NCBI GenBank assembly: GCA_016789175.1
Contig: JAEURK010000340.1
Location: 1-45,105 of the forward strand
Length of the DNA stretch: 45,105 nucleotides
Source: Anaerolineales bacterium
GTDB taxonomy: Bacteria; Chloroflexota; Anaerolineae; Anaerolineales; UBA6663
Direction: 5' to 3'
Both the position numbers and the translations under genes were made by a program. The notes below the pieces were generated by a model. It was given only the letters and a program-made list of their open reading frames with translations. It was not told where the DNA came from and made no database searches. Below, piece after piece: positions 39,207 through 43,199 of the stretch. Positions within the stretch are counted from its first letter, which is position 1. The number at the start of each line of letters is the position of its first letter.

Positions 39207-42200
39207 ATGTCCGGCCCGCTCACAATCGGGTTCATCTCCGCCTGGCCCATCTACCAGGGCACGACCATCGACCGCTACGCGCATTCGCTGATCCACGGCA
39301 TCAGCGCGGCGGCGCATGCGGCCGGATGTCATCTTCTGTTGGGCTGCGGCTTCAGTGTCACCGGCAACAGCCCGCAGCGGCGCAGCTTCTGGCCGGTGCC
39401 CGGCCCGGAGGTCGAATTCCTTCCGGTGGGGCCCTGGAACACCGACGGCTTGATCGTCGTCCCCGATGAGCTGACCGAGGCGCAACAACGCTACGTCCGC
39501 GACCTGCAGGCCACCGGCTTCCCGGTCATCTTCACCACGCCGGAGGGCGCCGGCCCGCTGGTCAAGGTCGACAACGCTCACGGCATCCATTCGGCGTTCG
39601 CCCACCTGCTCGAGCACGGCCATCGCCGGATCGCGTACATCGCCGGAAACGCCAACGGCCGCGGGGATAGCCGCGAGCGGCTGGCCGCCTACCGCGAGGC
39701 GCTGCTGGACGCCGGTCTGCCGCTGGATGAACGCCTGATCGCGTTCGGCGAACACCGCAAAGAGAACGGCGCCGCGGCCATGCGCCAGATCCTGGCTGGT
39801 GGTGCGCCGTTCAGCGCCGTGATCGCCAGTAACGACCTGTCGTGTCTGGGCGCCATCGACGTCTTGCACGCGGCCGGGCGGCGCATCCCCGACGACGTCG
39901 CGGTCATCGGCTTCGACGACATCCTTGATGCCCGTTCGCTGTCGCCCTCGCTGACCACGATCCGGCATCCCACGTTCGCGTTGGGCTATCAGGTGCTTTT
40001 GACGCTGCTCGAGCACATCCGCGGCGAGCGCGCCGGCAACACGCCGGTGGTGGTGCCCACGCGCCTGATCATCCGCCAGTCGTGCGGCTGCCGGCCCGGC
40101 CACCTTGGCCCGCAGTCGGAGACGCTGTCGCCCCTCGCCCTGGCCCGCGAGATGGCCGAGGCGGCGCTGATCGAAGCGCACAACAGTGCGCTCGAGGAGC
40201 TGGAGGCGCAGGCGTCGGCCTTCCTGGAGGCCTTCGCGGTCTGCCTTCGCCAGCGCGAGGCCGCCCCGCTGCTGGCCGAGATCGAGCGCGCCCTGGCCTG
40301 GACCGAAGCGCGCGGTGACGACGTCCACCTCTGGCAGGCCGCGACCGGCATCCTGCCGCAACGCCTGAACACGCTCAAGGCCCTGAGCCCAGGGGCCGAT
40401 CGCGATTTCGCCGCCAGCCTGCTCGACCGGGCCCGGCTCGAGATCAGCGACAGGATCCAGCGGCAGACCACGCGCGCGATGCTCGGCTACATGGGCATGA
40501 TGGCCCAGCTCGGCGAGCTCACCGCCGAAGTGCTCGCCGCCACGAGCATCGAACAAAGCGCCGAAATCATGGCCCGGCACCTGCCGCACATCGGGATCCG
40601 CAACGCCCTGGTCGCCCTGTTCGAGCCGGATGGCGAGGACCCGACCGCCCGGGCGGTGGTGCTGTTCGGCGCCGGGATGTCGGCCGCTCACAACGGCCTG
40701 CGCTTCGAGTCGCGCCGGTTCCCCATCCCGGCCATCTATCCGTCGGACCAACCGGTGCAGTTGACCATCCTGCCGCTGACGGTCGATGAGACCACGTCCG
40801 GCTTCGTCGCCTTCGATGCGCCCAACCCCGAGCTGTGCGCGGCGATCGTCCACAACCTCGGCGCCACGCTGCGCACGAGCCGGCTTTATCAGGACGCGCT
40901 CGAGGGCCGCCGGCTGGCCGAGGACGCCAACCGGCTCAAGAGCCGATTTCTTTCGATGGTCAGCCATGAGCTGCGCACGCCGCTCAGCCTGATCGTCGGC
41001 TTGAGCGAGATGTCGCTCCGGGCCGCGGTGGTCGAGAAGCGCGACCTTGAGCAGATCAACCTGAGCGCTCAACATCTCGCCCGGCTGATCGGAGACGTGC
41101 TCGACCTCGCCAGCAGCGAAGCCGGACAGCTGCGCATCCTGCGCGAGCCGCTCGACCTGGCCGAGGTGCTGCAGGTCGCGGCCAAGATCGGCGAGCAGCT
41201 GGCCGCCGACAAGGGACTGGCCTGGCAGGCAGATCTGCCGGCACGCGGGCCATGGGTGCTTGGCGACCGCACCCGGCTGCGGCAGGTGGTGCTCAACTTA
41301 ATCAGCAACGCGGTCAAGTTCACGGCAACCGGTCAGGTGCAGATCACGGTGTCGGTCGCCGACGGGCAGGCCCGAATCGCGGTCAGCGATACCGGGCCGG
41401 GCGTCGCCCCGGCCGAGCTCGACACGATCTTCAACGAGTTCTACCGGGCCGAGCGCACGATCGAGTCGGGACCGGGCGGCATGGGCCTGGGGCTGGCGAT
41501 CACACGGGAGCTGATCGAACAGCACGGGGGTTCGATCCAGGCCACGTCGCCGGGCGCGTTGGGCCGCGGCTCCACCTTTGCCTTCACGCTGCCGGTGCTC
41601 TCGGCCGGGACACTGCCGCCCGAGCTGGTCGCGCCGCTGGCGAAGCCGGGCGCCAGCCTGATGCTGCTGGCCGAGGACGATGCCGCGACCGACCACCTCG
41701 CGGCCTACTTGAAGGAGCTCGGCTTCGATCTCGTGGTCTGTCGCGTGGACGAACAGCCCGAGTGGCTGGCGCAAGTGGCGGCGCTGCTGCCGGCCGCCGT
41801 GATCCTGGGTGAAGGCCTGGCGGCGCGTGAGGGTTGGGCCATCGTCGGGATCCTCAAGCGCCAGCCCGCGACCGAGCACATCCCGATCCTGGCCTATGCC
41901 ATCGATCTGAAGAGCAACCAGGGCGAGCTGCTCGAGCTCAACTATCTGACCAAACCCCTGCAACAAGCGCAACTCGTCGAGGCGCTCGCCCGCCTGACCG
42001 GGCCGACCGGGCCGTTGCAGACCGTCCTGGTGGTGGACGATGACCCCGGCATCCTGGATCTGCATATCCGGCTGATCGAGCAGGTCGGCCGGCGGGCTCT
42101 GACAGCCCGCAACGGTCGTGAGGCCCTGGCCGTGCTCGAGCACGCCCGCCCCGACCTGATCTTGCTCGACCTGAACATGCCCGAGATGGACGGTTTCGCC

Positions 42201-42719
42201 GTGCTCGACGCATTGCGCAGCCGCGAGAGCACCCGCGACATCCCGGTCATTATCCTCACCGCCCGCTTGCTCTCTTCCGCCGATCTGGAGCGCTGCCAGC
42301 AGGGCGTGGCCAACATCCTGGGTAAGGGCCTGTTCAGCACCGCCGAGACTCTGGCCCACATCGAGGCTGCGCTCGAGCGTCGCAGCCCGCTGGGTCGGTC
42401 GACGCGGCAACTCGTGCGCCGGGCGATGGCCTTTATCCACGCCCACTATGCCGAGCCGATCGAACGGGAGGCCATCGCCGGGCATATCGGCATCAGCGCT
42501 GACTACCTCACCGATTGCTTTCATCAGGAATTGGGGCTGACGCCCATCATCTACCTGCGCCGCTATCGCATCCGGCAGGCCTGCGAGCTGCTTCGGACGA
42601 CCGATTTGCCGATCACGCAGGTTGCGCTGCACGTCGGCTTCTCGGATGGCGCCCACTTCGCCCGGACGTTTCAGCGCGAGACCGGTCTGACCCCGAAAGC
42701 GTATCGGCGGCAGACCTGA
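39207..42719 (+). CDS. LacI-type sensor / histidine kinase / dual receiver / AraC regulator in one protein
   Basis: A 1170-residue cytosolic protein. Residues 1-290: PBP-I (LacI/GalR-type) ligand domain without the LacI HTH (LTIGFISAWPIYQGTTIDRY ... PDDVAVIGFDDILDARSLSP), ending in RQSCGC. About 300-570: helical and GAF-like linker. About 575-800: histidine kinase with phospho-acceptor His587 (SHELRTPLS), N box NLISNAVKF, and ATPase motifs SDTGPGV and GGMGLGLAI. About 816-930: first receiver, degenerate (VILGEGL where the Asp should be, Lys kept in YLTKPL). About 935-1060: second receiver with Asp988 in LILLDLNMPEMDG. About 1070-1170: AraC HTH (ITQVALHVGFSDGAHFARTF). No transmembrane helix or signal peptide, unlike Bacteroides HTCS. 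Precedes a maltose-type binding protein gene, the likely target. Confidence 0.96.
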   Translation: MSGPLTIGFISAWPIYQGTTIDRYAHSLIHGISAAAHAAGCHLLLGCGFSVTGNSPQRRSFWPVPGPEVEFLPVGPWNTDGLIVVPDELTEAQQRYVRDLQATGFPVIFTTPEGAGPLVKVDNAHGIHSAFAHLLEHGHRRIAYIAGNANGRGDSRERLAAYREALLDAGLPLDERLIAFGEHRKENGAAAMRQILAGGAPFSAVIASNDLSCLGAIDVLHAAGRRIPDDVAVIGFDDILDARSLSPSLTTIRHPTFALGYQVLLTLLEHIRGERAGNTPVVVPTRLIIRQSCGCRPGHLGPQSETLSPLALAREMAEAALIEAHNSALEELEAQASAFLEAFAVCLRQREAAPLLAEIERALAWTEARGDDVHLWQAATGILPQRLNTLKALSPGADRDFAASLLDRARLEISDRIQRQTTRAMLGYMGMMAQLGELTAEVLAATSIEQSAEIMARHLPHIGIRNALVALFEPDGEDPTARAVVLFGAGMSAAHNGLRFESRRFPIPAIYPSDQPVQLTILPLTVDETTSGFVAFDAPNPELCAAIVHNLGATLRTSRLYQDALEGRRLAEDANRLKSRFLSMVSHELRTPLSLIVGLSEMSLRAAVVEKRDLEQINLSAQHLARLIGDVLDLASSEAGQLRILREPLDLAEVLQVAAKIGEQLAADKGLAWQADLPARGPWVLGDRTRLRQVVLNLISNAVKFTATGQVQITVSVADGQARIAVSDTGPGVAPAELDTIFNEFYRAERTIESGPGGMGLGLAITRELIEQHGGSIQATSPGALGRGSTFAFTLPVLSAGTLPPELVAPLAKPGASLMLLAEDDAATDHLAAYLKELGFDLVVCRVDEQPEWLAQVAALLPAAVILGEGLAAREGWAIVGILKRQPATEHIPILAYAIDLKSNQGELLELNYLTKPLQQAQLVEALARLTGPTGPLQTVLVVDDDPGILDLHIRLIEQVGRRALTARNGREALAVLEHARPDLILLDLNMPEMDGFAVLDALRSRESTRDIPVIILTARLLSSADLERCQQGVANILGKGLFSTAETLAHIEAALERRSPLGRSTRQLVRRAMAFIHAHYAEPIEREAIAGHIGISADYLTDCFHQELGLTPIIYLRRYRIRQACELLRTTDLPITQVALHVGFSDGAHFARTFQRETGLTPKAYRRQT

Positions 42720-42836
42720 GACCTCTCCCGCTTTTGGTCAAATCTAGCCCGCTGCGCGACAAGACAGCCTCAGGCTTTTCCACTATCGTGTCCGAGTTGT
42801 GTCATCGGAGCGTTACGGGAGCCGCGAGGCCTGGCC

Positions 42837-43199
42837 ATGCCCCCTTTGCCCACGAGGCTGTTGGTCGTCGGTAACGATGTGAGGTTGATCCACCTGCTGC
42901 GCCGGTACGGCGAACAGAGCGGCTGCCAAATGATCGTGCCGGCCCCGGCGTCCGAAGCGACGCAGGCTGATCCGGGGCAGCCCACCGCGCTGGTGTTCCT
43001 GTCGCTCGACGATCTGCAGACCGCCCAGACCGTGGTCGACGATCTGGCCGCGCTCGAAACGCCCGTGCTTGTATGTGCGTCTGTGGCGGAGGAAGCTCGC
43101 GCTCGCGAGCTCGGCGCGGATGCCTGTCTGTTGCACCCGCTGACGTATGAACACTTCCTGGCGGTCCTGGCAGCGATCGGCCCGTCACAGGCGCATTAA
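42837..43199 (+). CDS. Degenerate stand-alone receiver-like protein
   Basis: A 120-residue protein with the CheY-like pattern RLLVVGNDVRLIHLLRRYGE (the acidic pair reads ND), TALVFLSLDDLQTAQTVVDD (Ser at the expected phospho-Asp position) and DACLLHPLTYEHFLAVLAAI (His in place of the conserved Lys). It keeps the fold but lacks the phosphorylation residues, so it is probably a pseudo-receiver that binds a partner. It lies 117 bp downstream of the sensor-regulator, same strand, and 158 bp before the binding-protein gene. No clear ribosome site; GAGG 11 nt upstream. Confidence 0.7.
   Translation: MPPLPTRLLVVGNDVRLIHLLRRYGEQSGCQMIVPAPASEATQADPGQPTALVFLSLDDLQTAQTVVDDLAALETPVLVCASVAEEARARELGADACLLHPLTYEHFLAVLAAIGPSQAH

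Follow-up and report, generated by a model that had tools for sequence, protein, structure and literature searches.

Among hybrid two-component regulators of polysaccharide use, the membrane sensors of Bacteroides are the best known. In these hybrid two-component systems (HTCS), for example BT4124, a histidine kinase (HK), a receiver, and an AraC-type DNA-binding domain are combined in one chain for polysaccharide genes (PMC11253607). Here we analyze a 45,105-nucleotide stretch of DNA from an Anaerolineales bacterium of the Chloroflexota (GenBank assembly GCA_016789175.1, contig JAEURK010000340.1, positions 1 to 45,105; the window), which encodes a protein with the same combination. This 1170-residue protein, P0001 (39207–42719), is followed on the same forward strand by genes for a stand-alone pseudo-receiver, P0002, and an extracellular solute-binding protein (SBP); the predicted control elements lie on this strand as well. 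The HTCS are membrane-bound and sense in the periplasm, whereas P0001 has a cytosolic LacI domain, an inserted pseudo-receiver, and no transmembrane helix. It is a variant of the hybrid two-component system that is soluble and has a conserved pseudo-receiver, which probably acts in feedback. We consider it reasonably likely that P0001 is a ligand-gated regulator of a galactan-utilization operon, working by the full mechanism set out below, including feedback by P0002. Chloroflexota would then hold a soluble counterpart of the Bacteroides sensors, in which the sugar domain of a classic repressor drives a kinase and a predicted activator.

Domain organization of the hybrid regulator

P0001 was delineated from its open reading frame (ORF), Pfam matches, and an AlphaFold model. 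The N-terminal LacI/GalR-type ligand-binding domain (residues 1–295; 39207–40091) matches Peripla_BP_3 in Pfam (residues 132–293; 1.3e-34) and has the PBP-I/LacI fold, with Foldseek matches to a LacI ancestor (9nt4), CelR (5ysz), and RbsR (9ny7) at E values of 1e-16 to 1e-18. The N-terminal LacI helix-turn-helix (HTH) is missing, with no PF00356 match in Pfam. An all-helical linker (residues 296–445; 40092–40541), seen in the AlphaFold secondary structure and the alignment, is followed by an α/β domain (residues 446–540; 40542–40826) that has no Pfam match and whose modeled secondary structure suggests a GAF-like topology. In the model, a long helix leads from this domain into HisKA (residues 578–640; 40938–41126), which carries the phospho-acceptor His587 (codon 40965–40967). 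The chain continues with HATPase_c (residues 686–797; 41262–41597), a first receiver (REC1; 41652–41996), a second receiver (REC2; Response_reg, residues 940–1041; 42021–42374), and an AraC-type HTH DNA-binding domain (HTH_18, residues 1091–1169; 42399–42713). The top PDB match of the whole model is ShkA, followed by LacI-family repressors (Foldseek).

A preliminary description of the window had proposed that a GalR/LacI ligand domain at the N terminus senses its ligand in the cytosol, and that this domain, a kinase, two receivers, and an AraC HTH form one polypeptide. Both proposals hold: Pfam, profile comparison, and the model support the domain order, the PBP-I fold is present in residues 1–295, and neither a signal peptide nor a transmembrane helix was found by Kyte-Doolittle hydropathy or in the AlphaFold model. 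The hydropathy peak (1.75, residues 854–872) is modeled as a core helix and strand of REC1, and a membrane-bound or secreted form of P0001 was ruled out by hydropathy and the model. The ligand-binding domain ends in a Cys-Gly-Cys sequence (SCGC, residues 293–295; 40083–40091) that all 44 family members share without change. In the GGDEF, HD-GYP, and HK fusions, the corresponding region also contains C[GA]C, and the motif is possibly a metal or redox site.

The active sites of the two receivers differ. In REC2, the catalytic set is intact (D944, D945, D988, T1018, and K1040; codon of Asp988 at 42168–42170). All 44 aligned family members carry H587, D945, and D988, and 43 carry K1040, the remaining sequence having a gap there; the earlier observation that the second receiver retains Asp988 is thus confirmed by the alignment. 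Neither REC1 nor P0002 has a Pfam match, and REC1 was recognized by profile-profile comparison against the family's REC2 (E 7e-10). Its model follows the β-α receiver pattern with a strand where helix α4 is expected (residues 895–911; 41889–41939), a region that is part of the face normally used for receiver pairing. G868 replaces the phospho-acceptor Asp and A898 the Thr, with K916 kept and invariant in the family. A pseudo-receiver has been defined as a receiver fold lacking one or more of the residues DD, D, T, and K (PMC12632262), and by its sequence REC1 is an aspartate-less pseudo-receiver in this sense. The loss of Asp described earlier applies to the window. It does not extend to the family: 38 of 44 sequences keep Asp at this position, and it is lost only in the clade of the window and a few others. 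The acidic positions of the REC1 Mg pocket are not conserved in the family, and their loss in the window copy is less clear than that of the Asp because an acidic run (E823–D825) is present at the end of strand β1.

These features bear on the phosphotransfer chemistry. P0001 has no Hpt domain in Pfam, and a multistep phosphorelay was ruled out since REC1 has no Asp and a single receiver can be phosphorylated; the predicted chemistry is therefore a one-step transfer from His to Asp. The internal-ligand phosphorelay of the preliminary description keeps its cytosolic sensor, kinase, receiver, AraC output, and two pseudo-receivers, and loses the relay.

Searches across genomes show the architecture to be a family trait and not an oddity of one genome, and an impression of uniqueness was not borne out. 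The linker was matched in 63 of 396 genomes in a class-wide search and matched strongly in 17 of 400 in a phylum-wide search, both counts including a sister form that ends in GGDEF. All 40 aligned Chloroflexota proteins (alignment A1, Pfam) contain the full domain set; one relative, L203, lacks REC1. In the samples searched, no LacI-linker-AraC form was found outside Chloroflexota, with weak matches in Armatimonadota. Bacillota join the LacI-linker unit to HK, HK-REC-Hpt, HD-GYP, or GGDEF outputs, and since the unit is fused to such differing outputs, the sensor behaves as a module. Individual fusions carry GGDEF (L140, L200, and L198), HD-GYP (L196), HK-REC-Hpt (L195 and L197), or HK only (L193 and L194). 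A literature search, thin on subscription journals and so weak evidence of novelty, found the architecture nowhere described; the P0001 type is apparently an undescribed, widespread Chloroflexota variant of the hybrid two-component system.

The partner pseudo-receiver and its predicted operator

The gene following P0001 encodes P0002 (120 residues; 42837–43199). Its model has a receiver fold (pLDDT 81.6; structural matches to CpxR, DivK, and others at E about 2e-5), profile comparison with REC2 (E 3.2e-16) likewise identifies it as a receiver, and all five catalytic residues are missing, the positions being occupied by G12, N13, S56, A81, and H100. P0002 is a pseudo-receiver by the same published definition (PMC12632262), which bears out the earlier view of a receiver-like neighbor without the acidic pair, phospho-acceptor Asp, and Lys. 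A role as a phosphate sink was excluded, as there is no Asp.

Seventeen relatives encode a P0002 homologue downstream in the same orientation, and 17 others with enough sequence have none; with the window counted, the partner occurs in 18 of 35 testable loci. Its presence clusters on the kinase tree (3 changes, versus 12.1 for shuffled labels), a distribution indicating that the partner is inherited by clade. One could take P0002 for a decaying receiver gene that lies near the kinase by chance, as the loss of all five active-site residues might suggest. This is very improbable. The ORF is open in all 18 loci (21–67% identity to the window copy in the 16 aligned), the partner clusters on the tree, and a 21-bp direct repeat lies upstream in several clades. 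Because the homologues are degenerate in all clades, the loss of the active site must be old, with the fold kept. In L011, a reverse-strand GH53 gene separates kinase and partner genes, so the partner there must have its own promoter. L121, a close relative of L123, retains the kinase and, after it, a gene of similar size, yet no partner gene was found there. In two other loci, the genes for the pseudo-receiver and for an Opp-type binding protein flank one for a protein of ~850 residues without Pfam matches (L124:9695–12316 and L128:11505–14033).

Comparison of intergenic regions showed that, in the window and in close relatives alike, the partner gene and the SBP gene are each preceded by a copy of one 29-bp element. 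The two window copies are predicted operators 1 (42738–42766) and 2 (43212–43240). Scanned over the 45 kb with a leave-one-species-out position weight matrix, built without the window's own sites, they score 34.4 and 22.1; the next best score is 9.4 and the shuffled maximum 14.9. An IUPAC pattern derived from the sites of the window and its relatives has two matches in the window and no other in the 5.63-Mb genome. Its reversed form, run as a control, likewise matches the genome at two places, so a pair of matches is not unusual as such, and it is their position that counts as evidence. The element is a direct repeat of half-sites CAAA and CAAg/t, 21 bp apart, a geometry known for AraC-family activators, as in I1-I2 of AraC. 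Of the 11 sites, 10 have a TAnnnT hexamer whose start lies exactly 24 nt past the proximal CAA, a fit that none of 2000 permutations equaled; this places the proximal half-site over the -35 region. The corresponding predicted -10 boxes of the window are TATCGT (42784–42789) and TACGAT (43258–43263), each 24 nt from the proximal CAA. Other partner-bearing clades have different half-sites (GTCCGAAAA, GTCCCRTAAGTG, and GTYCYAAAA) in front of the partner gene, but the 21-bp spacing recurs; an offset of 21 was the best for these repeats (0 of 1000 shuffles).

These sites might instead serve a neighboring LacI-family repressor or another AraC protein, with the hybrid kinase acting elsewhere. A conventional LacI regulator is indeed encoded nearby (37458–38480), and the genome holds further AraC-type genes. 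However, LacI-type operators are typically inverted repeats, whereas these sites are direct repeats at 21 bp. They adjoin the kinase gene in every close relative, none of which shows a LacI gene beside the kinase, and the genome has no further copy of the pattern. The half-sites also vary between kinase clades while the spacing is constant. We regard control by another regulator as quite improbable and take the sites as candidate targets of P0001.

The downstream operon and the likely ligand

The SBP gene (43358–44962; likely start ATG 43358 after AAAAGGAG) encodes a MalE/GanS-like protein with a C-terminal X25 domain, in agreement with the MalE-type product described earlier. In three relatives (L012, L013, and L014), genes for MalF-type and MalG-type permeases and for a GH53 endo-β-1,4-galactanase come next in the operon. 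In L011, there are two GH53 genes, and two more operator copies (at 1200 and 7995) are each located upstream of one of them; these copies would define a small galactan regulon. The genome of the window itself has one GH53 gene, on a short contig beside a gene 83–89% identical to the next gene of the relatives' operons.

The ligand was at first thought to be maltodextrin, which would make this a starch or maltodextrin system. The SBP is MalE-like (217 bits), its X25 domain is a pullulanase domain, and the permeases of relatives are MalF-type. Against this, operons of L011–L014 encode or adjoin GH53 galactanases, the ganSPQ products of Bacillus subtilis form a comparable galacto-oligosaccharide permease, and no amylase was found in the operons examined (PMC5472308 for ganSPQ). 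In B. subtilis, the LacI repressor GanR controls the equivalent operon, and its inducer is galactobiose (PMC5472308). We consider maltodextrin unlikely. The GH53 genes in relatives' operons and under predicted operators, the GH53 gene of the same genome, and the GanR precedent lead us to prefer a galacto-oligosaccharide, which is probably the ligand.

A gene without a Pfam match lies downstream of the transporter in several loci (L012:17879–19372, L013:17795–19492, L014:9459–10991, L011:12761–14161, and L219:1–1188). It follows GH53 in L012, L013, and L014, is 83–89% identical to the copy in the window's genome, and is possibly a new galactoside-processing enzyme. Two members without the partner (L015:5878–9672 and L129:1752–5498) adjoin large CBM11-Calx-β-GH16 proteins, which suggests a β-glucan ligand at those loci.

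Proposed mechanism and comparison with known systems

In the mechanism we favor, a galacto-oligosaccharide that has been taken up (most likely β-1,4-galactobiose or -triose) would bind the LacI-type domain. To judge from the model, the signal would reach HisKA by way of the helical linker, the GAF-like domain, and the continuous helix, with the sign of the ligand's action presumed. His587 would be phosphorylated and the phosphoryl group transferred in one step to Asp988 of REC2. The dimer could then place its two AraC domains on the directly repeated half-sites, which are spaced by 21 bp and of which the proximal one covers the -35 region. Two promoters would be activated, that of the SBP/MalF/MalG/GH53 operon and that of the P0002 gene. 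REC1, unable to take phosphate, probably controls how HisKA, the catalytic domain, and REC2 reach one another. P0002 would be produced only in the active state of the system and would most likely dock on the kinase or the REC1 region and damp it.

Several points weigh against this reading. The SBP scores higher for MalE than for GanS (151 bits), with both scores below cut-offs, and together with the X25 domain this leaves an α-glucan reading open. The assembly ends at 45105, after the SBP gene, and MalF and MalG are seen only in relatives. Finally, the core mechanism can do without the partner, which is missing from about half of the testable family members.

Two single-domain receiver-like proteins offer a precedent for the damping step. 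FixT inhibits autophosphorylation of FixL (PMC7078487). Osp is an inhibitor of CckA without the acidic pair and Lys; the system it belongs to activates it through a site near -35 (PMC9430884). Both inhibit a kinase in negative feedback, and the gene of an inhibitor of this type is activated by the system it controls. P0002 is likewise a stand-alone receiver-like protein that cannot be phosphorylated; with a predicted operator and -10 box upstream, its gene would be a candidate for such activation. There are differences: FixT and Osp come from another phylum and act on other kinases, P0002 lacks even the Asp, and FixT has a four-Cys Fe-S motif that P0002 does not. By this analogy, we give FixT/Osp-like negative feedback by P0002 about an even chance. 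P0002 could also be a required positive adaptor, for example one that binds REC1 and opens the kinase, resulting in positive autoregulation. Gene position and operator are compatible with either sign, and the P0002-family profile is nearer to REC1 (1.6e-19) than to REC2 (3.2e-16), making REC1-P0002 pairing conceivable. But the characterized single-domain partners with such a genetic layout, FixT and Osp, inhibit their kinases (PMC7078487 and PMC9430884), and about half of the testable family works without the partner; we find a positive adaptor rather unlikely and retain negative feedback. More tentatively, REC1 and P0002 might form a dedicated gate in which induced P0002 pairs with REC1 or DHp and blocks phosphotransfer, two phosphate-dead receivers providing phosphorylation-independent feedback behind an exchangeable sensor module. 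A recent review describes the activation of pseudo-receivers as a mystery (PMC12632262). For those of this system there is a genetic prediction, which combines an operator and a promoter of their own with feedback. The predicted operator also opens the way to regulon prediction in uncultured Chloroflexota.

The RxIP motif in most of the 44 P0001-family sequences replaces the [SC]HIP motif found in the REC α3-β4 loop of HTCS. The E. coli protein XylR (PDB 4fe7), which combines a LacI-type sugar domain and an AraC-type HTH in one cytosolic protein, is matched by the P0001-family profile over two stretches; XylR couples the two domains directly, whereas P0001 places a kinase and receivers between them. 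The order DHp-CA-pseudoREC1-REC2 is common to P0001 and ShkA of Caulobacter crescentus (PDB 6qrj; PMC7010744), which serves as the precedent for REC1, although ShkA has neither the LacI sensor nor the DNA-binding domain. The DDR linker motif of ShkA is not kept, with even DR present in only 2 of 44 REC1-REC2 linkers, and the equivalent of R344 is Q919; control by c-di-GMP as in ShkA is unsupported, since both are missing. In its genetic setting, the P0001 locus resembles ganSPQAB of B. subtilis, where a galactobiose-induced LacI-type regulator accompanies an operon for a permease and an endo-galactanase (PMC5472308). GanR is a plain LacI repressor, whereas in P0001 such a ligand domain would drive a kinase and a predicted activator.

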